Made by a program: the position numbers and the translations under genes
Assembly (NCBI RefSeq): GCF_024494725.1
Contig: NZ_JANHDK010000001.1
Span: 1,364,001 to 1,428,000 of the forward strand
Source of the DNA: Haloplanus ruber
GTDB lineage: Archaea > Halobacteriota > Halobacteria > Halobacteriales > Haloferacaceae
Reading direction: 5' to 3'
Length of the DNA stretch: 64,000 bases
Notes under the pieces: model-generated
The model's database searches: none
What the model was told of the DNA's origin: nothing
The model's input: only the letters and a program-made list of their open reading frames with translations
Part shown: positions 1 to 30,769 of the stretch, piece after piece
Position numbering within the stretch: position 1 is the first letter of the stretch
How the letters are laid out: each line of letters opens with the position of its first letter

Positions 1-27
1 GAGAAACCGATGAAATACGCAAGACTC

Positions 28-7613: not shown

Positions 7614-8294
7614 CTACGAAAGTGTGAGTTCGATATAGTCTTCGATATCGGATTCGGCAAGCAGTTGGCGTTGATTCTCCGAGAGATCGGAATACGAGAG
7701 TCGCTCGTCATCGATCATACGGTAGATGAGCCCCCGAATCTCTTCCGGATACGATCCGAATAACTCCTCTTTCAGATCCTCAAACGCAGTTCGCATCTCT
7801 TCACCATACTCTCGGGCATTCTCCTTCAGTTCGGCAAGCTCGTTATTCCCGTCAAGGTAGACGTGTTCTTTCCATCGCCAGTCATCGAGAAGTCCCTCAA
7901 GAGCCTGTAGACGCATCCCACTGACACGGTCAACGCGGTCGTTCAGACGCCGCATCGCAGTAACGGTCGAATTATGCTTCAACCGGAGTTCCTGAATACG
8001 GTTCTCCACCGTCTGTTCGGCTGCATCGACATCATCTCTGAGGTTGGAAAGACGTTCTTCGACTGTATCGTAATCGTTCTGCTTAAGCAAGCGAAGAACC
8101 TCTTGAACGCGCTCTTTGGCGGTCGTATCTATCTCGATTTCCTCCTGAAAGAACGCCTTCGCAAGCGTCCGCTGGAGAATAGTCTCTTCCATCACCTCCG
8201 CAATTTCGTCGAGTTCGTCGGACAGGTATCGTCGACGATGCTCTTCTTGAACCTTCTTTAGCCGATCCTGAAGCGGTTCTGACTCAGTCGACAT
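7614..8294 (-). CDS. Coiled-coil protein, last gene of restriction operon (DpdI position)
   Basis: From the ATG at 8294 the protein is 226 residues; five more codons upstream are open. It is almost entirely charged, helical sequence with heptad-like spacing (about 10-200) and no catalytic motif. The start lies inside the end of the 954-residue ATPase gene (11-nt overlap), so the two are translationally coupled and probably interact. In bacterial Dpd islands a small gene follows dpdG-dpdH, which makes this a positional counterpart of dpdI. That equivalence is inferred from order only. Confidence 0.7.
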   Translation of the reverse strand: MSTESEPLQDRLKKVQEEHRRRYLSDELDEIAEVMEETILQRTLAKAFFQEEIEIDTTAKERVQEVLRLLKQNDYDTVEERLSNLRDDVDAAEQTVENRIQELRLKHNSTVTAMRRLNDRVDRVSGMRLQALEGLLDDWRWKEHVYLDGNNELAELKENAREYGEEMRTAFEDLKEELFGSYPEEIRGLIYRMIDDERLSYSDLSENQRQLLAESDIEDYIELTLS

Positions 8295-11149: not shown

Positions 11150-11986
11150 TCAGATCAGGGTGATCGTGTTCGCTTGGCTATCAATTCCGTCGTACGGTGG
11201 CACGCCTCCGAGTCCAACGGCCCCGGCGTCACCGTACTCGACGACCTCGATTTCGCCGTCGCGGACGAGTTCGAACAGAATTCTGGCGAGTCCTTCGGGG
11301 ATGTTCCCGTCAGATGTCGATTCGACGTACAGGAGGTGCTCTCGGAGCCATCGGAGATACTCTTCTACTTCGATTCCTGGGCCACCATCGACGTCGATAC
11401 CGCGGTCGTGGGTAGCCAATTCTAGTGAGGTTCGCACCAACTCCGGATCTGGATAGACGGTGTGTTCGCGTCCTCGAACCTTGTGTACCAACCCGAGGAA
11501 GTGAACGAGCCGTGTCCAGTTCGCGAACTTGTTGTCGTTGTGTTCGATGCGCCCCTGTTGAGACTGCGGTAGATACCCGAGTTCGTTGAACCATTCGTCG
11601 ATATCGGTGTAGAGCCTCTCTTCGTTGTTTTCGAAGAACTGGATGTCGTTTCGCAGTAGGTAGCTGTAGTTCAGTAGTACGACGGCTTGTTTCCCCCACG
11701 ATCCAGGTTGACATTCCTGTGCGAGACCGTGAAGTGCCGTGAGTTTGAAATTCAGCTCGTCGTTGCCGACGTCCCACTGGAATGGCTTCGTGTAGTACTC
11801 TCCCTCTTCCTTGCCAATCATCCGGAGAAGACGTAGTCCGCCGAGAGCGGCGTCTAATCCAGAGTCGATGCCGGTATCCGTCTTGATCGCGTCCTTCGTA
11901 CAGTTCCCATCGTCGACGGAACGATAGATCGGGAGGAGGGGTCCCGGAGTCTGAACTGTGTTGAGAATGTAACCTTCACTACTCAT
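11150..11986 (-). CDS. DpdG-like winged-helix protein
   Basis: The 278-residue protein begins with a helical segment followed by a short domain resembling a winged helix (about 25-65, where the LGGLRLLRMIGKE stretch could be the recognition part). A helical middle carries the NWTRLVHFLGLVH segment near 155-167. There is no enzymatic motif. Its ATG overlaps the stop of the upstream 310-residue gene by 4 nt, and its stop is 1 nt before the ATPase start. Length, the helix-turn-helix-like start and position directly before a large ATPase match DpdG. A role as DNA-binding adaptor of the restriction complex is inferred. Confidence 0.65.
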   Translation of the reverse strand: MSSEGYILNTVQTPGPLLPIYRSVDDGNCTKDAIKTDTGIDSGLDAALGGLRLLRMIGKEEGEYYTKPFQWDVGNDELNFKLTALHGLAQECQPGSWGKQAVVLLNYSYLLRNDIQFFENNEERLYTDIDEWFNELGYLPQSQQGRIEHNDNKFANWTRLVHFLGLVHKVRGREHTVYPDPELVRTSLELATHDRGIDVDGGPGIEVEEYLRWLREHLLYVESTSDGNIPEGLARILFELVRDGEIEVVEYGDAGAVGLGGVPPYDGIDSQANTITLI

Positions 11987-12915
11987 AGGAACTCCTCTTC
12001 CAACCAGGAACGGTATCGCTTATGAATTGAGGACTCATCGGGGTTGATACTTTTCGCCTCTTGCCGCGCTTCATGAACTTTGGGACTCCGGGGAACGTAC
12101 GAGGGATCGAACGTTTTCCCCTCTTCCCCGACAGCCCTATTGAGCGACTGCGCGATATCGCGAGCTGTTTTGCGATCCCACTCGACACGTCTCCGTAGCC
12201 AGCGTTCCAAGCCCTCCACATCATCTTCGCTCAGGGGGACGGTTCCAAATTCATCTTCGCGTCCGAATATCTGGCCGAATACACTATAGAGGGGCAGATA
12301 CGGCGCGTCCGGGAGTACGTCGAATAACTCCTCGGTCGTCTCGATTGATTGGCCGGTCACGAATGCGTAGATATTCGCGTTGTCGTGGAGGAAGATGTTC
12401 ATCGTATCCAAGAGCGGGAATCCCCAACCAGCGTTCTCGTATATCGACTCGAATCCGTTGTACAGGCGTTGGTAGGAACCGACAGCCTCGACGAACTGTT
12501 CTTGATATAGCGGGCGTTGTCCTCCCCGAGGAGTGAATCGCTTGGAATCAGTAACGATGAGAAGCGTTTCCGGAACGGACGAGTACCGGCTAACTAGGTG
12601 ATCGACCGAGTATTGTGTCTCCGACTCGTAATACTCGTTAGAGATGACGACAAGATCGTCATCGAACGCTTCCTCTTCGATTTGGCCGAGAACCTTGTAT
12701 TCGTACTCGAGGTAGTCGTACTGCTGTGAATACGACTGGAACTGTCCACCCGTATTGAGGGTGCGCCAAGACGTCGGATAGGTGAACGTCTCGAAGCCAA
12801 GATAGTGAATGGCCGGAAGCGACCTGAGGAGCCACCAGTACGTCTCGTCGACATCGTCGTGAATAACTGCGACGTCGGCGTTGCGTAGCCGTTTGAAGGT
12901 CGCCGGTTCGTCCAT
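11983..12915 (-). CDS. Hypothetical protein of the helicase operon
   Basis: The 310-residue protein is not recognised. The first about 150 residues alternate hydrophobic strands and helices (VAVIHDD near 14-20, DLVVISNEYYE near 87-97, LLIVTDS near 117-123), like a Rossmann-type or receiver-type fold. The last about 80 residues are charged and helical and end in WLEEEFL. There is no HKD (phospholipase D) motif, so it is not a DpdK/DrmC equivalent. The start codon shares one base with the stop of the helicase gene (TGATG), and the end overlaps the DpdG-like gene by 4 nt. It is therefore co-translated with the helicase and probably forms part of the same complex. Confidence 0.7.
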   Translation of the reverse strand: MDEPATFKRLRNADVAVIHDDVDETYWWLLRSLPAIHYLGFETFTYPTSWRTLNTGGQFQSYSQQYDYLEYEYKVLGQIEEEAFDDDLVVISNEYYESETQYSVDHLVSRYSSVPETLLIVTDSKRFTPRGGQRPLYQEQFVEAVGSYQRLYNGFESIYENAGWGFPLLDTMNIFLHDNANIYAFVTGQSIETTEELFDVLPDAPYLPLYSVFGQIFGREDEFGTVPLSEDDVEGLERWLRRRVEWDRKTARDIAQSLNRAVGEEGKTFDPSYVPRSPKVHEARQEAKSINPDESSIHKRYRSWLEEEFL

Positions 12916-15900
12916 CAGTGGGACTCAGCTCCGATAATCTCTCCAAGTGTCCGGTTGTCTAGGAGGTCGTTTTCGAGATAGTACGCGGGCGTTCGCGAAA
13001 GTAGGAGGCACTCGTCACAGTAGTCGTCACATCGGTCACAGGCCGCAATCTCGGCGACACGAGATTCGATATCGTCTATAGCGTTCCAGACTTGCCAGGC
13101 GATTCCGTTACCTCCCTGCCGACTGTCGACAATACGGACAACCACCTCTGTTTCCTCCTTATTCGCCTTCACACGGAAGTCGGAGCGATCACACTGCGCC
13201 ACGACAGCAATCGCCTTATCCAGCGCCTGCTCCAAGCTGACCAGCGCCTGTGGCCACGAGGCCGTCTCGTGGGTCAATCGATCGAAGCGGTTTCGAACAT
13301 CGTCAAAATCGAACCGGAGAGTGATTCCCTGAGTGTGATACTGTTGTCCCACAGGAGCGTACTCCTCGGTATCCGCATCTTCCAGCCGCTCCTGCCACGA
13401 ACGTCCGCTGTCCTCGGTCGTGGAATCTTGTTCGATTAGTGCTTCGGAGCGTAGAACTTCTTTGTCGGGACTGGCCGAATGGCGACGTTCGAAGGCGAAG
13501 ATGAAGTCGGTTATCTCGAGTTCGCCGTAGCTCGCATCGCAACTGAGACCGAATACGGAGCGTGAGGACGTGTTCTGGGGTCTTGCTGAATTCTCGGACG
13601 TAATTGACGTCGCCATAAGTCCGTGGGTGTTGTACATCCGCTGCCCCCCTTTCGCAGGCTTACACTCAACTGAACTCACACCGTGAACGTTCGTCTCTTC
13701 GAGACTTTCGTCACAGTGGGGGCACTGCGCGGCGTCATGAGAGTAGCTTTCGAATGGGCGGTCGCAGTCTTCGTTGACACAGACCATGACCGTCGCCAGC
13801 GGTGTCGACGATCCGTGGACATCGTCGACGATGTAGTCCGTCCCGTGGAGGGTGATGACGGAACCAAGGTCGTTTTCCGGGCCAGGATACATATCGTAGA
13901 GTCGGCCGGATGCTTCGAATTCGATACCCTCACTGTGCCCCTGAAATTTCACGGGGAATTGCTGTCCGAAACTTCGATAGTTCGCCAGATAGCCGAGTCG
14001 AGAGAGCCACTGGTCGAGTCGGTTGTTGTTCTCGGTGAACGCCTTGTTCGTCTCCGCAGATCCCGACAGGGCGGTGATGCGAGAGAATGTCTTTTCGACG
14101 CGGTTCGACACCGACAGTGGCCCATCTTCCACGAACGCTTGCTCGAACGCGTCCACACCGGGCTGACCGAAGACAGACTCGATGTGGCGCTCCAAGGCAT
14201 CGCGACGCTCGTCGAGGAGGAAATCGACGAGAATTCCCAAATTTTCCTCCACTCCGTTCACGAACGCCCCGAGGTTCTGATTGATTTCGGTGAGTTGGTA
14301 CATCCGCTCGAATATATTTGATGGGTGGGGATTTCGAGCCAGATATGCAAAGGTTTCCGTAACGACGTGGCCGGTGAGGATTTCGTCGAATTCGTACGGA
14401 TCAGGAACTCGAACTGGTTCGAACTCGTTGAGGAACGTTTCGAGATTTCCGTAATAATGGCCGTCAACGGGATGCTCTCCTCGAATCGCGGTTAGCACCA
14501 GCGAGGAACTTCCACGTGTTCGTCCGGTTCGACCACTACGCTGGACGTAATTCGTTAGTGTCGGCGGAATACCCACTTGTGAGACAGTATCCAGCGTACC
14601 GATGTCGACACCGAGTTCCATCGTCGGAGTTGAACTAACAATGTTCACGTCGGGGTCGTCCTTACGGAATCCTTCTTCAATAGCACCACGAAGGGTGTGG
14701 GGAATATTCCCTTTATGAATTCCCACGGAAATGAACTCGGGAGAGTTCCCATTCCTGATCGGAGTCGTAATATCGTGGGCCCAGTGGTCGATCGCATAAG
14801 GCCATCCAGAGTCAGCTTGTGCGTATCCCGGATCAACGGCGAGTGATCCGTCGTCTTCTCTCGTGAATCGACGATGGGTTTCGAGTGGATGTCCACAGTT
14901 GGGACACGTATCGATCGCATCGTCTTCAGGAACAGGATAGGAACGGTAACAATCCGTACAGAAGGCTGTCCGTTCAAGCAACGTCAGATTGGAATCGTCT
15001 CGACGAAGTACACGTGTGAGGATGCCACTTTCTGCATCCGATTCGGAGTCGACAGCGTCGGCATATTCGTCACGGACGCGTTCGAGGTAGTCGAACGTTG
15101 CTTGTTTCTTTTCGTCGCTGATCGACGCGTTCGCTACCGTCTGTCTGACCTCCTCCCAAGACTGCTCGACGACGATCGATTGATTCAGTAGCCGTTGCAA
15201 AACTTTCGGTACGACTGACCCGACATCACCGCGGTCATATCCGGATCGCTTCGCAACACGGTTGATGATTTTCGGGAGCGACAGCCCCTCGATACTGATA
15301 TTGTTTTTACTGAATCCAACGCCCGGATCCGTTGCAAACAGCTTGTACGTCTCGTGTGCGATGACGATCTCTCTGGGGTCGTCGAACTCCGAAACCGGAG
15401 CGGCCGTGACGAGGGCACTGTCAAGGAGACCGGTGGCGTTGTGTAGCATCGCGTGGCCCTCAATATCGTCAAGGAGCGTTCGAAGGAAGTTGTAGGCCGT
15501 GCCGTCTTCGTCGATTTCGTTCTGAATCAGTGGCTCCCAGTACTCCTCTCGAAGACGATCCGCCACAGTTCGGAACAGTTCGTAATTGTCACGCGAGCCA
15601 CCGCTGTCGATCAGCTCTTCGATGTAGAGTGTCTGGGCCATCAGGCCGTACTCTGTTCCGATGATCCGGTCACCAACCGACTCTGCGGCGCTATGTGAAT
15701 CCGAGAAGACGAGCGTCTTCTTCGATGGAGAAGTACGGCATATCTCCGTTAGCATGTACGACAGCAAACTCGAAGTGGGTACCCCGATGTCAGAGAGGTT
15801 AGGCCACTGTTCACAACCGGGACAGGAGTCGACGGACTCAGCGTGATCGAACGGGCGGAATGTGTCCTCATCACCACTGACCTTCACTTCCACGTAGGGG

Positions 15901-17645
15901 TAGTGACACCGCTTGCAAAACTGGAGTTCGAGGTTCTCCGTGTTACAGGAAATACACCGTTTATCTCGGGTGACTTCACTGCACGCCTCGCACAGATACG
16001 CTCTGTGTGGCGGCTTGAGGAAGACGTGATATTTCTCCGTGATCATCCCAGCAAGTCGACCGAAAGCCATCACCGTACCCAGAACTCCTTCTGGATTTTC
16101 GACACCCGTCTCGGAGAGTTGTGTGAGAAGTTCGTCGTAGTGCTTGAATCCGACTTCCCCTGTCGTTCCTTCGTTGAACCACTGCGCGAATTCGGCAACC
16201 TCAGGAACCGAGTCGACGACGAAGTCGAACCACTCGCTGTATAGTCCACCGGCATCTAGGATTGCTTCGGAGAGCCGGTCATGGCCTCGGGGTGATTCGG
16301 CTACCGCACGCGGTGATTCGAACTCGCCTTCCGAAATGAGCGTCTGCGTTTCACTTCGGATGGGTGCTCGAATCCACTCAGCGTCAACCGAGAGCACTAT
16401 CTCTCCACTTGATTCCACTTCGACGAGCCCAACCTCGCTTGCTGTTTCGAATGCGTCTTCCAGTTCTTGCTCTCTCAGATCCGAAACCGTGACCCCACCC
16501 ACTCGTGCGAGCGCGATAACAGCCGCAAGGCCAGTTACATCCGTAGCTGTGAATCGGTTAAACCGAGGACGCCCGTTAACCGGAAATTCGCGGGGTGTGA
16601 ATCCGATTGAATTGATGTCGGATTCCGGCGTACCGGTGAGTTTGTGAGCGAGTTCGGTCGGATTATCGACCGTTGCCGAAACCATCGAAATCTGTGGATC
16701 GCGATCACCGTAAAACTCCTTGAGTCGTTCGGAGAGAAGACGAATTGACGCTCCAGAAATGCCGCTCCAGACGTGCGCTTCGTCGAAAACGATGTGCTCG
16801 ACGGGATGTTGTGCTGGATTTTCGCCAAGGATTTCGCGAGTCTCCGAATTGTTACTCACGAACATGTGGTCCAAAGCTTCGGGGTTCGTGAGGAGGATAT
16901 CAGCACCGTTCCGAATGGCGTCCCGCGTTACTCTGATCCACGAATACCGATTATCGTCGGTACCGACTGTCATATCCCCGAGTATGCGTAGCTTCTCGCC
17001 TTCCTCTCGTGGACACTCAAGGCCCCGAATATAGGAACCCTCCTCGATCTCGTGCTCTCTGGTACCGATACGAGTCGGTGTGTCGGAGTCCCAGATTCCG
17101 ATTGTGATTCGGTCTTCGGGTTCTCGATACCGATTAATTCGGTCAAGATACGAAATGAACCGGTTGAGTTGATCGACACCGAGCGTTTTCATCGGATACA
17201 CAATAAGTGACTTCAGACCCGACTCTTCGGTAGAGAGACAATGATTCAAAATCGGGAAAAAGAACGCCTCTGTCTTCCCTGTCGCCGTTGGGACGGCGAG
17301 GATGTTGTCATCCGAATCGGCTGAAATGGCCTCAATTGTCTGTGCCTGATGCTCGTATAATGATCCAGTTTCGTTTCCGTCGAATAGTTCGTCAACGATC
17401 GCCTCGACTAGTTCGTCGCGGTACCCGAGATCAGCCAGAAAGTCGGCAGCAGGTTGCTCGTAGAACTTCGGTGCATCGACAAATTCGACGTACGGCCCCT
17501 TCTGCTCCACGATTTCGTTCTGGACGAACGAGGTAGCGGCTTCGTCATCGACCACATGGTTAAGCCGCGTCATCTGTCGATTCCACCAAGTAATCTCCGA
17601 CGCTCTGTCGACCGCAGCTTCGAGGGTTCGTTGTGGGGAGTGCAT
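12915..17645 (-). CDS. DEAD/DEAH-box helicase with C-terminal DUF1998, DruE/DrmB/MrfA-like
   Basis: The 1576-residue protein has Walker A PTATGKT at 119-125, DEAH at 288-291, SAT at 323-325 and motif VI QRSGRTGR in the second lobe. Several zinc-ribbon CxxC pairs follow: CEAC/CISC/CKRC/CPGC in the 560-640 region, then CTDC/CPNC and CPHC. The end carries a DUF1998-type domain with CDRC...CDEC. This layout is that of the YprA/MrfA family and of large helicases in defence systems (DrmB, DruE). It opens the five-gene minus-strand operon and is probably the motor of the restriction arm. It is longer than typical MrfA proteins (about 750 residues). Its own promoter (TATA on the minus strand at 17,687-17,693) lies in the 57-nt gap from the upstream gene. 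Confidence 0.85.
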   Translation of the reverse strand: MHSPQRTLEAAVDRASEITWWNRQMTRLNHVVDDEAATSFVQNEIVEQKGPYVEFVDAPKFYEQPAADFLADLGYRDELVEAIVDELFDGNETGSLYEHQAQTIEAISADSDDNILAVPTATGKTEAFFFPILNHCLSTEESGLKSLIVYPMKTLGVDQLNRFISYLDRINRYREPEDRITIGIWDSDTPTRIGTREHEIEEGSYIRGLECPREEGEKLRILGDMTVGTDDNRYSWIRVTRDAIRNGADILLTNPEALDHMFVSNNSETREILGENPAQHPVEHIVFDEAHVWSGISGASIRLLSERLKEFYGDRDPQISMVSATVDNPTELAHKLTGTPESDINSIGFTPREFPVNGRPRFNRFTATDVTGLAAVIALARVGGVTVSDLREQELEDAFETASEVGLVEVESSGEIVLSVDAEWIRAPIRSETQTLISEGEFESPRAVAESPRGHDRLSEAILDAGGLYSEWFDFVVDSVPEVAEFAQWFNEGTTGEVGFKHYDELLTQLSETGVENPEGVLGTVMAFGRLAGMITEKYHVFLKPPHRAYLCEACSEVTRDKRCISCNTENLELQFCKRCHYPYVEVKVSGDEDTFRPFDHAESVDSCPGCEQWPNLSDIGVPTSSLLSYMLTEICRTSPSKKTLVFSDSHSAAESVGDRIIGTEYGLMAQTLYIEELIDSGGSRDNYELFRTVADRLREEYWEPLIQNEIDEDGTAYNFLRTLLDDIEGHAMLHNATGLLDSALVTAAPVSEFDDPREIVIAHETYKLFATDPGVGFSKNNISIEGLSLPKIINRVAKRSGYDRGDVGSVVPKVLQRLLNQSIVVEQSWEEVRQTVANASISDEKKQATFDYLERVRDEYADAVDSESDAESGILTRVLRRDDSNLTLLERTAFCTDCYRSYPVPEDDAIDTCPNCGHPLETHRRFTREDDGSLAVDPGYAQADSGWPYAIDHWAHDITTPIRNGNSPEFISVGIHKGNIPHTLRGAIEEGFRKDDPDVNIVSSTPTMELGVDIGTLDTVSQVGIPPTLTNYVQRSGRTGRTRGSSSLVLTAIRGEHPVDGHYYGNLETFLNEFEPVRVPDPYEFDEILTGHVVTETFAYLARNPHPSNIFERMYQLTEINQNLGAFVNGVEENLGILVDFLLDERRDALERHIESVFGQPGVDAFEQAFVEDGPLSVSNRVEKTFSRITALSGSAETNKAFTENNNRLDQWLSRLGYLANYRSFGQQFPVKFQGHSEGIEFEASGRLYDMYPGPENDLGSVITLHGTDYIVDDVHGSSTPLATVMVCVNEDCDRPFESYSHDAAQCPHCDESLEETNVHGVSSVECKPAKGGQRMYNTHGLMATSITSENSARPQNTSSRSVFGLSCDASYGELEITDFIFAFERRHSASPDKEVLRSEALIEQDSTTEDSGRSWQERLEDADTEEYAPVGQQYHTQGITLRFDFDDVRNRFDRLTHETASWPQALVSLEQALDKAIAVVAQCDRSDFRVKANKEETEVVVRIVDSRQGGNGIAWQVWNAIDDIESRVAEIAACDRCDDYCDECLLLSRTPAYYLENDLLDNRTLGEIIGAESH

Positions 17646-20861: not shown

Positions 20862-21723
20862 CGGTAACTACGGAGCCCAACACATTCGATGTAACTCGTT
20901 CACTGTGCCTCTGTTTCCTCTACTGGCACGGCATATCATATAAGTTGAGCCTACCACGGGGCGAGAAGTGACATTTAGATGTCGAGAGAGGTCTTCCAAG
21001 ATTGGTACGTGGATCGGACTTATTTCGAACCAACTCATCAATGTGTGATTCGTATTGGATATAGTGAGCAATCCGGAGAGATGCCTCCTGGTCGATTCCG
21101 AACCATTACTCTACTGTACATGGTACAATCTTGTCGGGTGATTGTCTCCTCATATCTGCTATTTTCCCTTAATTGCTGCCTCGAGCGCAGGATCGCAGAA
21201 TCTTGTGAATGTGTGCTCCATCGTGATGTTCAACGCACCGGCAACTATCCATGACTCGGCGGTGTCGGAGGAATCGAGGAGCGGGAGGCCCCTTCGGCCA
21301 TCTCTTTGACAGGGTAGTGTTCGTAGTCATCACGTTCGACTTGGCCGAGAAATCTCGAGTACAACCGCACCGATGGCGGCTTCGAATCCGCCGGAGGTGT
21401 CTCGATTCTCCGAAGAAGTATCGTCACCGGTGGGTCCAACAGCTTTCGGGAAGGCGTCCACGTACCGGTCGATTAGTATCAACTCTGATCTCGTACGTGT
21501 GAATATTTATCATGATTCTAAGTCACGGGGAGAGGCTCTCCGATATAAATCGACAATTCCGATGCCAATTCTCTCTGACGAGACTGGACCTCTCGAGTGA
21601 CGGAGATAGCGCTGGATTCTCTCATCGGCACCGAAATATAAGATGGAGGTAGTTGCGGCTTCACTCGCCTGCGGCGGCATGACTTGGGAAAGCTTCAAGC
21701 CGGTGTGGTCTCAACGGCAGGGT
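20862..21723. other. Long divergent non-coding region between restriction and modification genes
   Basis: No gene is convincing here. The region separates the minus-strand PH/HNH-repeat gene from the plus-strand modification genes and should hold both promoters. A TATA-like AAATATAAG lies near 21,632-21,640, and a minus-strand TTATATGATATG lies near 20,933-20,944. A GC-richer patch at 21,245-21,439 could be a gene fragment on the minus strand, but I cannot identify it. Confidence 0.4.
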
Positions 21724-22200
21724 ATGTCGATGTTGCTGGTGCAAGGGTGTTCTAAATCGAAAAATCAGCCGGAGGAGGCCATGTCGGCGCTGAATCTGTA
21801 CACTGGATACTTCTTCAAAATTATCAAGAAAGCGATGAGAGAGGATGCGTTCGACGACCGGGTCGACGTGTGTATTCTCTCTGCTGAACACGGGATTATC
21901 GACCCCGATGCTGAGATCACGTGGTACGATCGAAGAATGGATGCCGACCGTGCAGCGGAACTCGCTCCCAAAGTACGAGAAGATCTTCGTGAAAGGATCA
22001 CCGGCGACTACGATCGCGTCATTATCAATGTTGGGAGCGTTTACCGGCGGGCAATCGAAGGTGTTGACTCGTCAGTAGACGCCGACATACACTATATCGA
22101 AGGAGAAGGGATTGGTGTCAAGGGCCATATTCTCAAGCGTGTTGTACGAGGCGAAGTAGAAGCTGTATTTCAGACAGCCGAAGCGGCAGGTGGCTGTTGA
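21724..22200 (+). CDS. YaaA/DUF6884-like protein, first gene of the TGT operon
   Basis: From ATG 21,724 the protein has 158 residues; in-frame ATGs at 21,679 and 21,643 are possible, but the conserved part begins at once with MLLVQGCSKSK. The GCSxSK start, LSAEHGII near residue 60 and the strand VIINVGS are features of the YaaA/DUF6884 fold, which also underlies the catalytic core domain of archaeosine synthase. The full PCX3KPY signature is absent: the cysteine and first lysine remain, but KPY does not. The stop shares one base with the start of the transglycosylase (TGATG). It probably works with that enzyme, either on the inserted base or as a specificity subunit. A DpdC-like role is conceivable but not shown. 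Confidence 0.7.
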   Translation: MSMLLVQGCSKSKNQPEEAMSALNLYTGYFFKIIKKAMREDAFDDRVDVCILSAEHGIIDPDAEITWYDRRMDADRAAELAPKVREDLRERITGDYDRVIINVGSVYRRAIEGVDSSVDADIHYIEGEGIGVKGHILKRVVRGEVEAVFQTAEAAGGC

Positions 22201-23441
22201 TGGCGAAGGCACGTTCTACGGGCACATTCCGCTTCGAAGTGAAGGAAAGAGCGGGAGATGCTCGAACTGGAGAACTATTCGTCAAGGACACGCAACTTTC
22301 CACCCCGAATCTATTTCCAGTTATCAACTTCTACGCCGGGGGGATGGAACGGAGCGTCTACGGTGGTGGTGTACACCGAACAATAAAGGAGCTGATGATT
22401 GGTGCAGATCGGGTCGGTATCGGCCCCCTCTCAGAGTATTTCGACGCGACGATGATGTCCGTCTCTTCACTCACCGATTACAATATCTCACGCGAGCGCT
22501 ACGAAGATTACCTTGCCGCACCGATCAAAGAGCGTGATCTTTTCGAGCCGTTCGATGGTCTCCTCTTCACGGATTCGGGTGGTTTCAAATTCTTGAATAA
22601 TGCGGAGATAGACGGAAGCGACTTCGAGGTGGAAATGAATCAAGAAGCGGTGTACGAGATTCAACAGGCGCTAGGTAGCGATATCATCGTCAACCTTGAT
22701 CACCCAATCGCCCCTGACGACACCCACCAAGATCGTGTCGAAAAGGCCGAAAAGACGGCGGCGAACATCCACAAATTCCTCACACTCACTCGGGATTTTG
22801 ACGGCGCACAGTATCTCACCCTGCACGGGTACAATTACTCGATGATGGACGAGTTCCTCGACGTCATTACTGATCGCGTTCCTGCCGGTGTTCTCCGGGA
22901 AGGTTTTGACGGGATCGCCCTTGGAAGCCTCGTACCCAAGAAAGACGACCGTGGTGCGCTGATCCAAGCCGTCACCGACTGTCGCGAGGTGATGGTCGAG
23001 TGGGGGATGGAAGATTGGCCGCTACATGTTCTCGGAATCTCCAGCCGGGCAATCCCTCTGCTGGCCGGTCTCGGGGCAGATACATTTGACTCGAGCACTC
23101 ACCTTCACAATGCCATCAACAGGAAGTACCAGCAATCGTTGATGGAAACCATATCGATAGATGAAGTGGATTTCAGTGAGTGTGACTGTCCGGTTTGCCA
23201 GTCCGACTTGCTCGTACAGCGAATGAAGGGAGACGCCAAGTATCAGAAGGACATTCTCGGGCCAGTCGCGATGCATAACCTGATCATCCAAAAGCGGGAA
23301 TTAGCGGAAATTCGACAACGGATTCGACAGGACGGAACGAAGGCCTTAGTCGAATACTTCGAGAAGACGTTCAGTAGAGATAAGACGATGCGGCGATTCG
23401 CCCATCAAGTAGTCAATCAGTCTCTCGGAGGATATTTCTAA
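22200..23441 (+). CDS. DpdA-like 7-deazaguanine DNA transglycosylase (TGT family)
   Basis: The 413-residue protein from ATG 22,200 is a queuine/archaeosine tRNA-ribosyltransferase fold. The DSGGF substrate loop has D125 (TDSGGFK, 124-130). The GIALGSLVP strand (238-246) corresponds to the base-binding GG loop. The second aspartate is in GADTFDS (D297), and a zinc site is formed by C328, C330, C333 and H359. Both catalytic aspartates appear intact. It lacks the PUA domain that archaeal tRNA TGTs use to bind tRNA, and its neighbours are defence genes, so DNA is the likely substrate, as in DpdA. It probably exchanges guanine for preQ0. It is coupled to the DUF6884 gene upstream and the GHKL ATPase downstream by 1-nt overlaps. 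Confidence 0.85.
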   Translation: MAKARSTGTFRFEVKERAGDARTGELFVKDTQLSTPNLFPVINFYAGGMERSVYGGGVHRTIKELMIGADRVGIGPLSEYFDATMMSVSSLTDYNISRERYEDYLAAPIKERDLFEPFDGLLFTDSGGFKFLNNAEIDGSDFEVEMNQEAVYEIQQALGSDIIVNLDHPIAPDDTHQDRVEKAEKTAANIHKFLTLTRDFDGAQYLTLHGYNYSMMDEFLDVITDRVPAGVLREGFDGIALGSLVPKKDDRGALIQAVTDCREVMVEWGMEDWPLHVLGISSRAIPLLAGLGADTFDSSTHLHNAINRKYQQSLMETISIDEVDFSECDCPVCQSDLLVQRMKGDAKYQKDILGPVAMHNLIIQKRELAEIRQRIRQDGTKALVEYFEKTFSRDKTMRRFAHQVVNQSLGGYF

Positions 23442-24997
23442 TGAAAAAGTCACCCAAGGTCAACGAGGTCAACGAATTTCTGGAAATCGCGAGCGACTTC
23501 GAAGATCCCCTCGAAGTTCTCCGCGAATCGCTGTCTAACGCATACGACGCAGGAGCGACTGAAGTCGATATCACGATACGCAGTCGTCCCAACGGCTCCG
23601 ACATCGTAATCGAAGACGATGGTCACGGGATGAACGAGCGCGATATAGAGTCGTTTTTCGATCTCGGGAATTCGCGGAAGACGGACTCGATCGGATACAA
23701 AGGCCACGGAACGAAAATCTTCTACAAAAGCGATCGGATTGAAGTCACCACGGTCCATGATGGAACGAGCTATCGGGCGGTAATGGACGATCCGTGGCGG
23801 AAGCTCAATCGGAAAGAACTCCCCGAGTACGAGATGACGGCTGAATCGGTTCGCCGCGGGAATCCCGGAACCAAGATCAAAATCACCAACTTCCGCTCCG
23901 GCCACGGATTCGACGCCGAGGAACTCACGTACAACAAGATCCACCATTATCTGAAGTGGAAAACCATCGCTGGATCGACCGCCCATTACTTCGGAGACGA
24001 TCAGCGTGAGATGGAGATTACGGTCAATCTTGACGACGAGATTGACAATACCTGCGACGAGCTAACCACGACGAACAGGCTGGAATTTCCCGACGAACAA
24101 CTTGAGCCAGGCAACAACGAGTACCCCGCTAAACGGATGTGCAAACACTATCCTGCGCGGGAAATCGACATCGAATACGAGAACGGCCAGACGACGCTCC
24201 AAATTGTAGGGATGGTTGGCGGGAAGGATACTCGGAATGAATTACCGACCTACGGCCGCCATTCGGCGCAGTTCGGAATCTGGTTCGCGAAGGATCATAT
24301 CAAGGTCGAACGCCTGAACGAAGCAATCTCTCACGACAACGAGTTCATCCACTTCTTTTTCGTCGCCAACTGCCAAGATATCGAACTCTCCGCGAACCGG
24401 GAAACGATTCGAAACAAGGCCAGTCCTGTGTACCAAGCCCTCGAGCAAGAGGTCGAATACTATCTTTCGAAGGTGACACAGGATCCGTGGTTCAAAGAGT
24501 ACCTGCAAATTCGAAAAGAGGGGGAACACCGACGACGGTCAGCTAGTCAACGCTCGTCGCTCAAAGACCGGCGTGAACGGATCGAATCGGACGGATTTCA
24601 GCCGAGTAACAAAGCTGAGGTGTTACTTGGACTCGAACGAGCAAGCAATCAGAGCGGCTCTCTATCCCTGACTGTCGAAGACTTCGATCCCGAGGCGGAT
24701 GTGCATGCGATCATCCGACAAGATGGAGCGCTCCGGAACGCGGCAGTTCACCCAAACCTCACAGGTCTCTTCGAAGACGAAGTTCCGCTCGAAAACACGG
24801 AGGTTGCCGTGTGTTGGAATCAGGGCGATCCCGCGGAACTGCAGGAGTACGAACGGAACGGCTATTTCGGCGGGGAAGTCTCGATCCAGCTCGACAACGG
24901 TGGGATTCGATATCAGAACGGGGACAGCCACTTCATCGAAGTCATCCAGGTGGAGGATTTACTTCAAACGAAATCCGCGCCACCTGCTGACGATTGA
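23441..24997 (+). CDS. GHKL-family ATPase (Hsp90/MutL/MORC type)
   Basis: The 518-residue protein has the Bergerat-fold motifs: N-box ESLSNAYDAGAT (residues 29-40), G1 DDGHGM (near 59-64) and G2 GYKGHGTK (near 83-90). A transducer-like middle region follows, and the C-terminus is unrecognised. There is no phospho-acceptor histidine or HNH domain, so it resembles MORC/MutL-type clamps rather than a sensor kinase. A GGAGGA ribosome-binding site at 23,427-23,432 precedes the ATG, which shares one base with the stop of the transglycosylase. Bacterial DpdA needs the ATPase DpdB; no DpdB is present here, so this ATPase may replace it as the energy-coupling or DNA-clamping partner. That replacement is my inference. 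Confidence 0.8.
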   Translation: MKKSPKVNEVNEFLEIASDFEDPLEVLRESLSNAYDAGATEVDITIRSRPNGSDIVIEDDGHGMNERDIESFFDLGNSRKTDSIGYKGHGTKIFYKSDRIEVTTVHDGTSYRAVMDDPWRKLNRKELPEYEMTAESVRRGNPGTKIKITNFRSGHGFDAEELTYNKIHHYLKWKTIAGSTAHYFGDDQREMEITVNLDDEIDNTCDELTTTNRLEFPDEQLEPGNNEYPAKRMCKHYPAREIDIEYENGQTTLQIVGMVGGKDTRNELPTYGRHSAQFGIWFAKDHIKVERLNEAISHDNEFIHFFFVANCQDIELSANRETIRNKASPVYQALEQEVEYYLSKVTQDPWFKEYLQIRKEGEHRRRSASQRSSLKDRRERIESDGFQPSNKAEVLLGLERASNQSGSLSLTVEDFDPEADVHAIIRQDGALRNAAVHPNLTGLFEDEVPLENTEVAVCWNQGDPAELQEYERNGYFGGEVSIQLDNGGIRYQNGDSHFIEVIQVEDLLQTKSAPPADD

Positions 24998-25023: not shown

Positions 25024-27030
25024 CTACTTGCTGTCACGGGAGGGGACTGTCCGCTCGTCAAGATGGTCGAGTAACTCTTGGATATTGCTGTTACGGAAGT
25101 ACTCGGTGAGCTGGAGCGCCTGCGGATCCCGCGGGAGGACGGTTCCCTGACCGTACGCATCAAAGGCGTCTTCAACGACCTGTCGGTAGGTCTTGCTCGT
25201 CACGTAGGCGACGATTTCGTCGAATTGATCACCGTACTCCTCCAGATAGCGGAGTACGCGATCGGTCACAAGTGTGATCTGATCATTGTCCTCCTTCGCG
25301 AGAACGTAGTCATATTCCAAGACCGGCTGTTCTCGCTCGAATTCTTTTGGGACAGGTCCGTACATGCCCGAGACGGTTAGCTTATGAATTCGGCTCGTTC
25401 GGTCGCCCAGCTTATCGAACAGGACGGAGTGTGTGCGGGATTCCGAGTATGGTTTCTTTTGACTACACGGGATCAACAGGAGAACATCTTTGTCCGCTGG
25501 CGGCTCGTGAGAACGAGTGAAGATATTGAAATCGTTTGGGCTATACTTGAGTGAGATCCGTCGGTTGTTAGTCGATTCGTCGACACCGGCGTCCCACTGG
25601 GATAGCTTCGCCTGATCGCTGGTGAGAGTTGAGCCTGGGAGAAGATCGTACGCTTCCCGTGCCTCGATATCTTGGCGGAGTCTCTTGTCGCGTAGTTGGG
25701 CCTCTTTGAGACCCTTCTTGATATCGTCGTGGTCGCGTGCGAAGTCGATGACGTAGTCCAGAAGTCGCCCATCCTGAATCGCTTCACGGACGTGTCTGAG
25801 TTCTTCATTGTAAAGCTCGAAATTGTGACGAGCCAATAGCGCGTAGTAGTCGCTCTTGATTGGCTCTCCGTTCTCTTTGCGCTCTTGGCGTTCGTCGTAG
25901 CTGAGATCAGTATTCAGTTCTTCTAGTAGGGTTTCATAGTCAATGCCGTCGTCACCGCACAGCGTACACTCGGGGAGGTCACAGGGAAAGCTCCCATCCG
26001 GCCGGAGATGTTCCTCAAGTTCTTCGAGCTTGTAGTGTGACCACGTCTCCGGGTGAGTGTACTTCTTGTATCGTGCAGTCTGCATATGCGTTGAACAATC
26101 GAACGAGTCGACACCGAGAAGAGAGAGCAGACCGACCTGTTTCCCTCCGACACCGAAGACGTGGAGGCCGATTTCGTCGGAGTGTGCCTCTGGGATTGCG
26201 TCTTTCGCTCCTTGGACAATATCCACAAGAACGTCGATACTGCTTCGTAATGGAACTAGCGAGCCGATAGCGAATCCTTCGAATGAACTTTCGATATTGA
26301 CTTCTTCAACGCGATCAAGGAAATTCCCGACATACCAGTTGATTGTCTCGTAGTCATGGCCGTGAAGGGCGATATAGACTCCCGGCTCTTCGCCAGCGGC
26401 TTTTTGTGCCCGAAGCCGATCAGCGGCACGGCTGTTAATATCGAAATTCTCCTCTAGGAGTGACGGGTCATCGAGAATGCGGAGACATTCGACAGCACTG
26501 TCGATGCTCTTGTTCATCCGTTCGACAGTCTCGTCATCTCGAAGGTTCGGCGGAATGGGGTAGTCCAACGTTGCGACGATGTCCGCCCCGAAATCGAGCT
26601 GCAGACCGAGGATACTCTTCGGATCGGTATAGAGTCCCCATTCGTTGGGGACGCCACCTTTCTCGGGGGCGTCACCAAACGTGTTCGAATTCATCAGCTT
26701 GAATCCTCCCGAGTCGATGAAGATGGGTGCGTTCAGATCCTCAAAGCGTTCGTGAAACGTTTCAGTTCGCCAGAAGTCGTTTAGGTTGTCTGGAGAGACG
26801 CCATAGTCGGTGAAACTCATCGCCTGAAACATTATTCCTTGAAGGTGATCCTTCGAAATGAGCTTGTCCCGCATCCGACGCCACACGCCTCCGGATTTCT
26901 CCGTAGTACCGCCGATCAGGTTGACGACAGGAAAGAGAACAGGTGTTTCGACAGGGCCGTGAGGAACGTCAAGTTCCCCGAGTCGACCATAGCCATCGTC
27001 TCCGACGAGTTTCACGCTGAACGATGCCAT
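25024..27030 (-). CDS. DpdA-like transglycosylase fused to ArcS-type DUF5591 domain
   Basis: In the 668-residue protein, residues 1-420 are a TGT fold with D106 in FIDSGGFK, strand GFAIGSLVP (252-260), D311 in GVDSFDCSTH and a zinc site C350/C355/C358/H402. Residues about 512-640 are an ArcS-like domain with the full archaeosine-synthase signature PCX3KPYX2SX2H: P521, C522, K526, P527, Y528, S531, H534. GMYGPVPKEFE follows near 555-565. In tRNA ArcS this motif joins lysine to preQ0, and the TGT half of ArcS is catalytically dead; here both halves look intact. No PUA domain is visible. It may insert preQ0 into DNA and convert it to a lysine adduct, with a radical SAM enzyme such as host RaSEA needed to reach archaeosine. 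It converges with the GHKL gene, 26 nt apart. Confidence 0.8.
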   Translation of the reverse strand: MASFSVKLVGDDGYGRLGELDVPHGPVETPVLFPVVNLIGGTTEKSGGVWRRMRDKLISKDHLQGIMFQAMSFTDYGVSPDNLNDFWRTETFHERFEDLNAPIFIDSGGFKLMNSNTFGDAPEKGGVPNEWGLYTDPKSILGLQLDFGADIVATLDYPIPPNLRDDETVERMNKSIDSAVECLRILDDPSLLEENFDINSRAADRLRAQKAAGEEPGVYIALHGHDYETINWYVGNFLDRVEEVNIESSFEGFAIGSLVPLRSSIDVLVDIVQGAKDAIPEAHSDEIGLHVFGVGGKQVGLLSLLGVDSFDCSTHMQTARYKKYTHPETWSHYKLEELEEHLRPDGSFPCDLPECTLCGDDGIDYETLLEELNTDLSYDERQERKENGEPIKSDYYALLARHNFELYNEELRHVREAIQDGRLLDYVIDFARDHDDIKKGLKEAQLRDKRLRQDIEAREAYDLLPGSTLTSDQAKLSQWDAGVDESTNNRRISLKYSPNDFNIFTRSHEPPADKDVLLLIPCSQKKPYSESRTHSVLFDKLGDRTSRIHKLTVSGMYGPVPKEFEREQPVLEYDYVLAKEDNDQITLVTDRVLRYLEEYGDQFDEIVAYVTSKTYRQVVEDAFDAYGQGTVLPRDPQALQLTEYFRNSNIQELLDHLDERTVPSRDSK

Positions 27031-28200: not shown

Positions 28201-28659
28201 ATGTCTGAGAGAATACCTGGATCATATTCTGGAAGCATACTTACCGACGCTGGTGAACGAACACTCCATATCGGAGATGACCATCCGATACGGATTAGTG
28301 CCGGGCATCGGATTCAACACCACGAGGGGAAGTGCAGCCGACCCCATGGGCACAACTACGAAGTCTCCGTCTCACTAACTGGAGAGCTCACGGAAGCGGG
28401 CTGGGTCGTCGACAAAGGTGACGTAACTACGGTCATCAACGAGTGGGATCACCGATTTTTACTTGAAGAGGGCGACCCACTCATCGATGCCTTCGAACAG
28501 TCGAACGATCGTGATGCTGTCGTCATTCTCGACTACCCGCCGACAGCGGAAGTAATGAGCGTCATCCTCGAAGAGCGTCTCCAAAACGAACTACCTGATA
28601 CTGTCTCCGATGTCTCCGTCCAAGTGGCAGAAACAGGTGAACTCTGCTCCGGGTACTGA
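28201..28659 (+). CDS. queD: QueD-like 6-carboxy-5,6,7,8-tetrahydropterin synthase
   Basis: The 152-residue protein belongs to the PTPS/QueD family. The zinc histidines are in SAGHRIQHHEG (His near 38) and the CSRPHGHNYEV segment. The CX3HGH arrangement supplies the catalytic cysteine and two zinc ligands typical of QueD. The C-terminal CSGY end and the ETGELCS segment also fit the family. It turns 7,8-dihydroneopterin triphosphate (the FolE product) into CPH4, the second preQ0 step. It is the first gene of queD-queE-folE-queC, 3 nt before queE, and is expressed from its own leaderless promoter. In this context it feeds the DNA transglycosylases. Confidence 0.92.
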   Translation: MSERIPGSYSGSILTDAGERTLHIGDDHPIRISAGHRIQHHEGKCSRPHGHNYEVSVSLTGELTEAGWVVDKGDVTTVINEWDHRFLLEEGDPLIDAFEQSNDRDAVVILDYPPTAEVMSVILEERLQNELPDTVSDVSVQVAETGELCSGY

Positions 28660-28662
28660 TCT

Positions 28663-29439
28663 ATGCCAGTCAACGCAGAATCCCATCCCGAAAGCGGAGA
28701 TCATGATATCGATGGCGACGCTCTCCCCATCAACGAAGTTTTCTACTCTCTTCAGGGCGAAGGAAAACTTGCCGGAACGCCGTCGGTATTCATCAGAACG
28801 AGTGGTTGCAATCTCCGGTGTTGGTTCTGTGACTCATACCATACATCTTGGAAGCCGACCCACTCGTGGATGTCGATAGAGGATATCATCGACGAAGTCC
28901 GTACCTTCGATGAGGCAGACCATGTTGTCCTCACCGGCGGTGAGCCCCTAATCCACGAAGAGAGTGTCAAGCTGCTCGACGAACTCGCCGATTACGGCTA
29001 TCACACGACAGTCGAAACGAACGGCACAATCTATCGCGATACGGCAATTGATCTTGCAAGTATCAGTCCGAAACTTCGGAGTAGCACGCCGACTACCGAA
29101 CGCGACCCAGACGGCGAGGGAGAGTGGGCTAACCGTCATGACAGCCGGCGAATTAATCTGGATGCACTCAGACAACTCGTTACGAATTACGAGAGCCAGC
29201 TAAAGTTCGTCATCACGGGTGCCGACGACTTCGAGGAGATTACCGATCTTGTGGAACGCGTTCGAAACCAGACTCAGATAGCTGTACCTGATGACGATGT
29301 GCTACTCATGCCGGAAGGAAGAACACGCGATGAACTCGCCGACACGCGTACTACTGTCGCCGAATTAGCGATGGATCACGGTTATCGATACACACCTCGA
29401 CTACACGTCGACCTCTGGAACGATGCCTCAGGTACCTGA
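28663..29439 (+). CDS. queE: 7-carboxy-7-deazaguanine synthase QueE (radical SAM)
   Basis: The 258-residue protein opens its core with NEVFYSLQGEG, the QueE signature. The radical-SAM cluster motif is CNLRCWFC (CX3CX2C), followed by the SAM-binding LTGGEPL segment. It converts CPH4 to 7-carboxy-7-deazaguanine, the third preQ0 step. It is not RaSEA (the archaeosine-synthase partner), since the length and the SLQGEG start are those of QueE. It lies 3 nt after queD and 2 nt before folE, so all are co-transcribed. Confidence 0.93.
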   Translation: MPVNAESHPESGDHDIDGDALPINEVFYSLQGEGKLAGTPSVFIRTSGCNLRCWFCDSYHTSWKPTHSWMSIEDIIDEVRTFDEADHVVLTGGEPLIHEESVKLLDELADYGYHTTVETNGTIYRDTAIDLASISPKLRSSTPTTERDPDGEGEWANRHDSRRINLDALRQLVTNYESQLKFVITGADDFEEITDLVERVRNQTQIAVPDDDVLLMPEGRTRDELADTRTTVAELAMDHGYRYTPRLHVDLWNDASGT

Positions 29440-29441
29440 TC

Positions 29442-30074
29442 ATGGCAAATGAAGACACCCACCTCATAGAGACGAATCGTAGCTCCGATTCCAAGAACGG
29501 AGAATCGACAGCGATCGACCACGAGAAGGCTCAGCGAGGAGTACGACTTCTTCTGGAGGCGGTGGGCGAAAATCCTGATCGGACGGAACTCACGGAGACG
29601 TGGAAGCGTCGAGTTCCGGACGTACTAGAGACGTTTAGTGAGGGTGAGCGTCTCGAGGACAAACCAACCATGCGAACATTCGATGCGGATTCGGATGGGC
29701 TAATCGTCAAGACCGGTGTACCCGTGTACAGTCTTTGTGAACACCATCTGCTCCCGTATCACGGGAAAGCCCACGTCGCTTATCGACCCGAAGATCAAGT
29801 CGTCGGCCTCTCGAAACTTCCGCGATACGTTCGATGGCAGTCACGCCGGCTGACGATGCAAGAGCAGTTGACTCGTGATATCGCGGATGGCCTCGCTGAC
29901 GAAATTGGTGCGGAAGCGGTGTTGGTAGAGATCACGGCCACCCACATGTGTGAAGCCATGCGCGGCGTCGAGACAGCGACAGCGACAACGACTCGGGCGA
30001 CAGTCGGGTCTCCGACGGATACGGAACAGCGGCGCTTCAGAGACGCGATTCAGCGAGCGGAGGATTCAACATGA
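29442..30074 (+). CDS. folE: GTP cyclohydrolase I
   Basis: The 210-residue protein is a type I enzyme. The zinc ligands are in CEHHLLPYHG (Cys and His, near residue 97) and THMCEAMRG (second Cys). GLSKLPRYV and RLTMQEQLT are further family motifs. It hydrolyses GTP to dihydroneopterin triphosphate, the entry to preQ0. The first about 35 residues are a variable acidic extension. Many haloarchaea use the unrelated MptA for this step, so a FolE here suggests the island brings its own complete supply line. It overlaps the queC start by 4 nt. Confidence 0.93.
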   Translation: MANEDTHLIETNRSSDSKNGESTAIDHEKAQRGVRLLLEAVGENPDRTELTETWKRRVPDVLETFSEGERLEDKPTMRTFDADSDGLIVKTGVPVYSLCEHHLLPYHGKAHVAYRPEDQVVGLSKLPRYVRWQSRRLTMQEQLTRDIADGLADEIGAEAVLVEITATHMCEAMRGVETATATTTRATVGSPTDTEQRRFRDAIQRAEDST

Positions 30075-30769
30075 ACACCGAAGAGAAACGGGCAGTAGTA
30101 CTAGTCTCCGGCGGGATGGATAGTGCGACGGCTGTTGCTGAGGCACGCGACCGTGGCTACGAACCGTACTTTTTCCACACCTCCTATGGCCAGCAGACCG
30201 AGGATAGAGAACTCGAGTGTGCCCGACAGCTAGCCGATGATTTCGATGCAGCGGACTTTCTCCACGTCGAAACTGAGCATCTAGCGCGGATCGGTGCATC
30301 CTCCCTAACGGACGACGAGATGGATGTCGCTGAAGCCGATCTCGAGAGCGACGAAATCCCGTCCTCGTACGTCCCGTTCCGGAACGCAAACCTCCTGTCG
30401 ATGGCTGTGTCGTACGCTGAAGCGAACGACTGCACTGCCGTCTTCATGGGTGCACACTCAGAGGACTTCTCCGGATATCCTGACTGTCGGCCGGAGTTCT
30501 TCGAAGCGTTCCAGCACGTCGTCGACGTTGGGACGAAGCCGGAGACGACGATCAGTATTGAAGCACCGTTCACCGAATGGTCGAAGACGGATATCGTGGA
30601 ACGGGGACTCAAACTCGATGTCCCGTTCGAACACACGTGGTCGTGCTACCGAGAATCCGAGCCAGCCTGTGGTACGTGTGACGCGTGTGCCTTCCGTCTT
30701 CAGGCGTTCCAACGGGCCGGTGTCGAGGATCCGATTGGATACGCTGAGCGGCCGAGTTACGTGGAGTAA
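30071..30769 (+). CDS. queC: 7-cyano-7-deazaguanine synthase QueC
   Basis: The 232-residue protein has the PP-loop SGGMDSAT (residues 13-20) for ATP, and a C-terminal zinc site in the segment CYRESEPACGTCDAC, with four cysteines as in QueC. It converts 7-carboxy-7-deazaguanine to preQ0 using ATP and ammonia. No Gat-like amidotransferase domain is fused, so the product is preQ0 itself. It is the last gene of the four-gene operon. The product would be used by the two transglycosylases at 22-27 kb. Confidence 0.93.
   Translation: MNTEEKRAVVLVSGGMDSATAVAEARDRGYEPYFFHTSYGQQTEDRELECARQLADDFDAADFLHVETEHLARIGASSLTDDEMDVAEADLESDEIPSSYVPFRNANLLSMAVSYAEANDCTAVFMGAHSEDFSGYPDCRPEFFEAFQHVVDVGTKPETTISIEAPFTEWSKTDIVERGLKLDVPFEHTWSCYRESEPACGTCDACAFRLQAFQRAGVEDPIGYAERPSYVE

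Follow-up and report, generated by a model that had tools for sequence, protein, structure and literature searches.

BRIGADE is a defence system which has been predicted from haloarchaea only (Bell et al. 2025 preprint, PMC12458937). According to the main text of this preprint, it is composed of two YprA helicases, a PLD nuclease and 7-deazaguanine genes; neither TGT, DpdA, ArcS nor a two-site enzyme is mentioned there. In phage DNA, dG+, dADG, dPreQ0 and dPreQ1 were detected, and the role of viral ArcS homologues was left open (PMC6884629). The ArcS of T. kodakarensis transfers lysine onto the preQ0 nucleoside, the nucleotide and tRNA, but not onto the free preQ0 base, and ArcTGT is unable to remove the resulting preQ0-Lys by a reverse exchange (PMC11298593). 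The free enzyme is inactive and lysine transfer takes place only in the complex with RaSEA (PMC11298593). For M. jannaschii ArcS, the use of ammonia, Asn or Gln instead of lysine was reported (PMC11298593).

Here we describe a gene of the haloarchaeon Haloplanus ruber which joins a transglycosylase (TGT) half to a DUF5591 (ArcS-type) domain. It was analyzed within a stretch of 64,000 nucleotides, called the window (contig NZ_JANHDK010000001.1, positions 1,364,001 to 1,428,000), to which the coordinates below refer. The island of low GC content around the gene matches BRIGADE, so the system itself is not new. The fusion is a genuine enzyme with two conserved sites, set in a system of a known type, and its product may be a DNA base nobody has yet looked for.

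Gene content of the island

The island has a GC content of about 0.52, compared with 0.63-0.72 in the flank to its right, which begins at about 36 kb. At the left edge of the window (1..101, minus strand) lies the end of a gene for a DpdK-like PLD nuclease, which is located mostly outside (C1:1363598-1364101). This gene (L139:14598-15101) matches PLDc_2 at 1.2e-8 and NCBIfam DpdK at 5.4e-14, the latter below the cut-off. It stands directly after a DpdJ-like helicase of the YprA family (28..4101, minus strand; PADLOC DpdJ 8.4e-46). Still further out, beyond the left edge, some genes are recombinase-like in the appearance of their sequence.

The DpdH-like ATPase (8284..11148, minus strand) was recognized by the PADLOC model at 9.9e-14 and by NCBIfam DpdH at 6e-14, again below the cut-off for the latter. 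It is followed by a conserved accessory protein of 231 aa (7614..8309, minus strand), which was found in 10 related loci and has no Pfam match over the cut-off. Two further conserved accessory proteins of 278 and 310 aa (11150..12915, minus strand; 7 and 8 related loci, no Pfam match) fill the space between DpdH and the second helicase. This helicase (12915..17645, minus strand) is of the YprA/MrfA type and Druantia/ARMADA-like, with matches to PADLOC DruE (1.5e-41) and Pfam MZB, the MrfA Zn-binding domain (6.3e-9). Between the DpdJ- and DpdH-like genes, a 378-aa protein (5528-6664) weakly resembles members of the uracil-DNA glycosylase superfamily (below the cut-off, E 0.004) and has no homologue in the other related loci. 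A 1052-aa protein (17703-20861) contains homing-endonuclease-associated repeats, a bacterial PH domain and a helix-hairpin-helix, and recurs near the fusion in several loci. No CD-NTase was detected among the island proteins scanned.

Three genes on the plus strand lie to the left of the fusion gene. The first encodes a small DpdC/YaaA-like DUF6884 protein (21643..22200; Pfam DUF6884 1.1e-13), whose true start is probably a conserved methionine near aa 26-28. The top PDB matches of its AF2 model are YaaA (5caj, Z 10.7) and AF0587 (2q07, Z 9.5), followed by rows at 7.0. Judged from this model comparison, DUF6884, DUF328 and DUF5591 may have a common fold. The second gene encodes another transglycosylase of 414 aa, TGT2 (22197..23441; Pfam TGT 3.3e-25), in which both catalytic aspartates and the zinc site are intact and which aligns with the TGT half of the fusion at an hhalign E value of 2.8e-60. 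The third product is a GHKL/HATPase protein of 518 aa (23441..24997; Pfam HATPase_c_3 2.4e-15), possibly an ATPase partner which replaces DpdB. Its gene adjoins TGT2 in nearly all loci, and the DUF6884 gene as a rule also lies beside TGT2. In 37 related haloarchaeal loci, each cut to 20 kb and counted without the window, the fusion is accompanied by TGT2 in 30, by the GHKL ATPase in 31 and by DUF6884 in 28. With the window counted, TGT2 and the fusion occur together in 31 of 38 haloarchaeal loci.

To the right of the fusion, a preQ0 synthesis operon consists of QueD, QueE, FolE and QueC (28201..30769, plus strand), FolE being assigned by sequence and the others by Pfam. Apart from the island copy, the genome contains no QueC of full length. 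Six of the seven genus-mates have no QueC, and no match to the fusion at 1e-20 was obtained in them; the preQ0 supply therefore came with the island or stayed with it. The same absence speaks against the operon being the ordinary host copy. The genus-mates without QueC may depend on salvage for their archaeosine tRNA. RaSEA is encoded outside the island, and arcTGT and ArcS are also located elsewhere in the genome.

Domain structure of the fusion protein

The open reading frame for the TGT-DUF5591 fusion (25024..27030, minus strand, 668 aa), first noted in a sequence-only reading of this DNA, was confirmed. A Pfam scan of the 668 aa gave TGT (4.2e-26) and DUF5591 (4.7e-21), both far above chance, and no other domain. 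The TGT half (aa 1-440; 25711..27030, minus strand) contains D106, D156, H223 and D311 as well as the zinc ligands C350, C355, C358 and H402. D106 is part of IDSGGF and D311 of FDCSTH; in the alignment with the ArcTGT of P. horikoshii (1iq8), D311 stands opposite D249, a number obtained by manual counting. The earlier statement that this half keeps D106, D311 and its zinc ligands holds when the residues are read directly. The zinc ligands are spaced C-x4-C-x2-C in the subclade of the window and in the usual manner, C-x-C-x2-C, in other fusion members. Haloarchaeal subgroups (L057-L063 versus the window group) can be separated by FDCSTH versus FDSSNY or FDSRSY at the nucleophile loop, and the zinc-ligand spacing differs between these subgroups too.

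The DUF5591 domain (Pfam PF17884) covers aa 507-630 (25141..25512, minus strand). Within it, the motif PCSQKKPYSESRTH (aa 521-534; 25429..25470, minus strand) is a direct sequence match and reads exactly P521-C522-x3-K526-P527-Y528-x2-S531-x2-H534. It had been called the exact archaeosine synthase signature, which is correct for the string and too strong for the function, as the motif is general to DUF5591.

By sequence, the closest solved structures are the archaeosine TGT 1iq8 (7.5e-13) and AF0587 (PDB 2q07), which matches aa 514-626 at an E value of about 4e-10 to 5e-10. The AF2 model of the fusion has a pLDDT of 82.6 and a pTM of 0.69, and VIA-align superposes it on the archaeosine TGT 1j2b with Z 35.6 over 358 residues (rmsd 3.1). 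This whole-model fold search mainly spanned the TGT half, and the DUF5591 assignment comes from the sequence matches to 2q07. In the model, aa 467-494 ahead of the DUF5591 domain have a pLDDT below 50, which is consistent with a flexible tether between the two halves.

Relation to ArcS, TgtA and DpdA families

The fusion reaches 113.8 bits with the NCBIfam ArcS model (NF040592; cut-off 440) and 100.8 bits with TgtA (cut-off 350), and it gave no match at E<=0.01 to the DpdA models of PADLOC and NCBIfam. By these curated cut-offs it would be classified as neither ArcS nor canonical DpdA. TGT2 matches the DpdA model weakly (21.6 bits against a cut-off of 200). According to Pfam, PUA and C2 domains are absent from the fusion and from three bacterial homologues. 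The host ArcS (L008) contains DUF5591, C2 and PUA, and its TGT is reduced to a fragment without a D106 equivalent and without the zinc cysteines. This agrees with the earlier assumption that the TGT half of tRNA ArcS is inactive.

The TGT tree unites the fusions of haloarchaea and bacteria in a single group (88/83). Its sister is the TGT2 of the island (98/93), and arcTGT, the tRNA TGT of bacteria and cyanobacterial DpdA branch elsewhere. The DUF5591 tree also places the fusion in its own group (96/94), separate from ArcS and from stand-alone AF0587-like proteins, with long branches meeting between the latter two. Since the fusion forms its own group including bacteria in both half-trees, an origin as a haloarchaeal ArcS with a regained TGT site was rejected. 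The DUF5591 motif is carried by all 30 ArcS loci examined, one of them with PCA for PCS, and in full by 8/8 stand-alone AF0587-like proteins examined. The motif thus marks the domain and not lysine chemistry as such. The stand-alone proteins (L192-L199) are about 200-250 aa long, come from other archaea of the phylum and show a complete PC-x3-KPY-x2-S-x2-H. When the C-terminal domain of arcTGT was compared with DUF5591 by hhalign, values of 36% to ArcS and 3% to the fusion set were obtained. This is a weak indication that the arcTGT domain might be a decayed DUF5591 and the fusion the ancestral two-site form.

The cyanobacterial DpdAs in L170, L171 and L172 are, judged from their sequence, fusions of an N-terminal DUF6884-like part and a C-terminal TGT. 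The adjacent haloarchaeal DUF6884 and TGT2 genes look like a split counterpart of this arrangement. H223 of the fusion was considered as a hallmark of DpdA and rejected, because these three proteins have Q at that position.

Conservation and distribution

At E<=1e-20, the fusion is present in 38 of 391 haloarchaeal genomes, with a patchy distribution. A scan of species genomes also revealed homologues in cyanobacteria, Poribacteria, Chloroflexi and other bacteria, mostly with 28-36% identity over most of the length. Residue conservation was analyzed in 69 homologues, of which 38 are haloarchaeal and 31 bacterial. D311, H402, C522, K526, P527, Y528 and S531 are unchanged in all 69, and D106 and D156 in all 67 where the residue is present. 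Position 521 is P in 65/69, and position 534 is H in 63, Q in two and F in four. As defined by these residues, two active sites are conserved in one chain across archaea and bacteria. Compared with six close orthologues, both halves are under purifying selection (pN 0.09-0.12 for TGT, 0.12-0.18 for DUF5591), at a pS of about 0.8, which is near saturation. A viral origin was also considered and rejected: a pattern scan of IMG/VR gave no relative, and phage records gave just two weak matches, to the TGT half.

A new finding is the presence of the fusion in cyanobacteria, Chloroflexi and Poribacteria, where some copies are neighbours of DpdJ-type helicases or of genes for preQ0. DpdJ-like helicases adjoin four bacterial fusions (L101, L103, L120, L123), and in L120 QueD, QueE and QueC-like genes are neighbours as well. 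Most Poribacterial fusions adjoin metabolic genes, as read from sequence, and not defence genes. In one Poribacteria MAG (L121:9938-11883), the fusion is split into ORFs of 167 and 473 aa, which is either a broken gene or an assembly error. Behind the cyanobacterial fusions (L096, L097, L100, L101, L112, L113), the next gene matches the NsnA/PD-T4-2_A defence models and is ParB-like in appearance. It is followed by a small gene, HEPN where scanned (L096), and the two may be a small defence unit in their own right.

A search of 17 bacterial genomes gave, in 12 of them, no TGT besides one tRNA-type enzyme and the fusion, so any non-tRNA insertion there would fall to the fusion. The haloarchaeal genome G236 also has the fusion without TGT2. 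Two fusion-carrying Chloroflexi (L184, L185) contain a third TGT type, which forms its own group beside bacterial tRNA TGTs in the tree, and a similar extra TGT occurs together with the fusion in the Chloroflexi genome G397. QueC-family genes were detected in all 17 bacterial genomes, with a marginal match in G400, and RaSEA above the cut-off in 0/17. Archaeosine formation via RaSEA is therefore unlikely there.

Proposed function and alternatives

In the reading to which we give an almost even chance, the fusion modifies DNA with two activities as part of a Dpd-like (BRIGADE-type) defence island: preQ0 is introduced into DNA, and its nitrile is then attacked by an amine, likely lysine. The TGT half would exchange a DNA guanine for preQ0, with D311 as the nucleophile and D106 as the acid/base. 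The tethered DUF5591 half would then attack the nitrile of the inserted preQ0 at C522/K526/Y528, most likely with lysine, and block the reversal of the insertion. In haloarchaea, the host RaSEA could cut the lysine adduct to archaeosine, and in bacteria without RaSEA the adduct may be the final mark. Helicases and PLD nuclease would restrict unmarked DNA. As ArcS acts on the preQ0 nucleoside and not on the free base, insertion is placed before lysine transfer, and the tethered order of steps fits both the substrate range of ArcS and the irreversibility of preQ0-Lys.

Insertion into DNA by the fusion is likely, because the gene lies in a defence island, tRNA-binding domains are missing and homologues occur in bacteria. 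Each half is presumably catalytic. Lysine is the leading donor at somewhat less than an even chance, mainly because T. kodakarensis ArcS needs RaSEA and M. jannaschii ArcS reportedly uses other donors. The sequence-only reading, that one protein may insert preQ0 into DNA and then attach lysine, is partly supported; it is favoured by the two conserved active sites, the loss of TGT residues from the host ArcS, the DNA-modification/restriction island, the missing PUA and C2 domains and the position of the host RaSEA outside the island.

Several points argue against the two-step relay. RaSEA is absent from the bacterial genomes, though T. kodakarensis ArcS needs it bound. The DUF5591 clade of the fusion is apart from ArcS, its motif also occurs in stand-alone proteins, and H534 is replaced by Q or F in 6/69. 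In most haloarchaeal loci, TGT2 could insert the base instead of the fusion, and most Poribacterial copies are away from defence genes. It is more doubtful, and in our estimate somewhat improbable, that a single enzyme produces dPreQ0-Lys, or what is formed from it, by two successive steps in chromosomes of haloarchaea and of certain cyanobacteria, Chloroflexi and Poribacteria, and that in RaSEA-less bacteria the lysine adduct is the final, undescribed DNA base.

The same relay might act on DNA with another nucleophile, so that water would yield dADG, or ammonia, Gln or Asn would yield archaeosine directly, in each case a known DNA base. The donors reported for M. jannaschii ArcS (PMC11298593) speak for this, and DpdC, a member of DUF328, hydrolyses dPreQ0 to dADG (PMC12839542). 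The DUF6884 protein of the island resembles YaaA/DUF328 as well as a DUF5591 structure, so different nucleophiles may be used by the same fold. An ArcS homologue is encoded by Vibrio phage nt-1, in whose DNA dPreQ0, dADG and dG+ occur (PMC6884629). However, all 69 fusions keep the C-x3-KPY-x2-S core of lysine-using ArcS, and amide formation would already be served by the separate DpdC-like DUF6884 protein. We regard another nucleophile as unlikely, yet as the strongest of the alternatives.

It is considerably less likely that only one half is catalytic in vivo, so that either the TGT half assists TGT2 as a partner subunit, or modified DNA is read or bound by the DUF5591 half for the restriction genes. 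The frequent co-occurrence with TGT2 (31 of 38 haloarchaeal loci) and the dimeric action of tRNA TGTs (PMC6884629) would suit such a role. The catalytic residues are conserved in both halves, however, and the fusion occurs without TGT2 in bacteria and in G236.

A function as a spare archaeosine enzyme for tRNA or other RNA is very unlikely. The sequence is related to arcTGT and ArcS, and PUA is reportedly dispensable for archaeosine formation, according to work cited in PMC11298593. Against this, the host already has arcTGT, ArcS and RaSEA elsewhere, the fusion is restricted to 38/391 genomes at E<=1e-20, and it lacks PUA and C2 and travels with DpdJ, DpdH and DpdK homologues. It also occurs in bacteria, which to our knowledge do not make archaeosine tRNA. 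Least probable of all is that the fusion puts 7-deazaguanine on protein, as reported for the TGT-family Cap10 with Cap9 of type IV CBASS: proteins can be the targets of TGT-family enzymes in defence systems (PMC11996544) and the TGT2 profile matches Cap10 (9ntn) at 1.1e-4, whereas the fusion retains the canonical TGT nucleophile and zinc site and has Dpd-type neighbours (DpdJ, DpdH and DpdK homologues), with no CD-NTase among the island proteins scanned.

Should insertion of preQ0 followed by lysine transfer prove true, one chain would both write and lock a hypermodified DNA base, the predicted nucleoside being dPreQ0 plus lysine. This would explain how BRIGADE islands mark self-DNA and extend the marking enzyme to bacteria. 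A rationale for the fusion would be given by tRNA, where the transglycosylase can no longer reverse its reaction once lysine has been transferred (PMC11298593). A literature search with limited subscription coverage, which is weak evidence, found no description of preQ0-lysine in DNA.

Comparison with known systems

The island resembles BRIGADE type I, whose nuclease is of the PLD or the PD-(D/E)xK type, in several features. It contains two YprA-like helicases, which by best model are ARMADA/Druantia-like (DruE) and Dpd-like (DpdJ), a PLD nuclease in the DpdK-like gene after the DpdJ-like helicase, and a 7-deazaguanine cluster of QueD, QueE, QueC, FolE (by sequence) and two TGTs. In contrast, the fusion reaches bacteria, from which the main text of the preprint does not report BRIGADE (PMC12458937). 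With ArcS, the fusion shares a DUF5591 domain with an identical motif and the domain order of TGT followed by DUF5591. The TGT half of ArcS is degenerate and accompanied by C2 and PUA, whereas that of the fusion is intact and C2 and PUA are absent.

DpdA is similar in the TGT fold, the Asp pair, the CCCH zinc site and an island with DpdJ, DpdH and DpdK homologues and preQ0 genes. The fusion differs by its C-terminal DUF5591, in place of which DpdA systems have a separate DpdC, by its separate TGT clade and by H223, which replaces the Q of cyanobacterial DpdAs. DpdC/DUF328 and DUF6884 probably belong to the same fold superfamily as the DUF5591 of the fusion, but DpdC adds water, not an amine, and the motif differs. 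The cyanobacterial DpdAs of L170-L172 also join a transglycosylase to a domain of the DpdC/YaaA kind, as the fusion does, but with reversed domain order, another domain family and a distant TGT.
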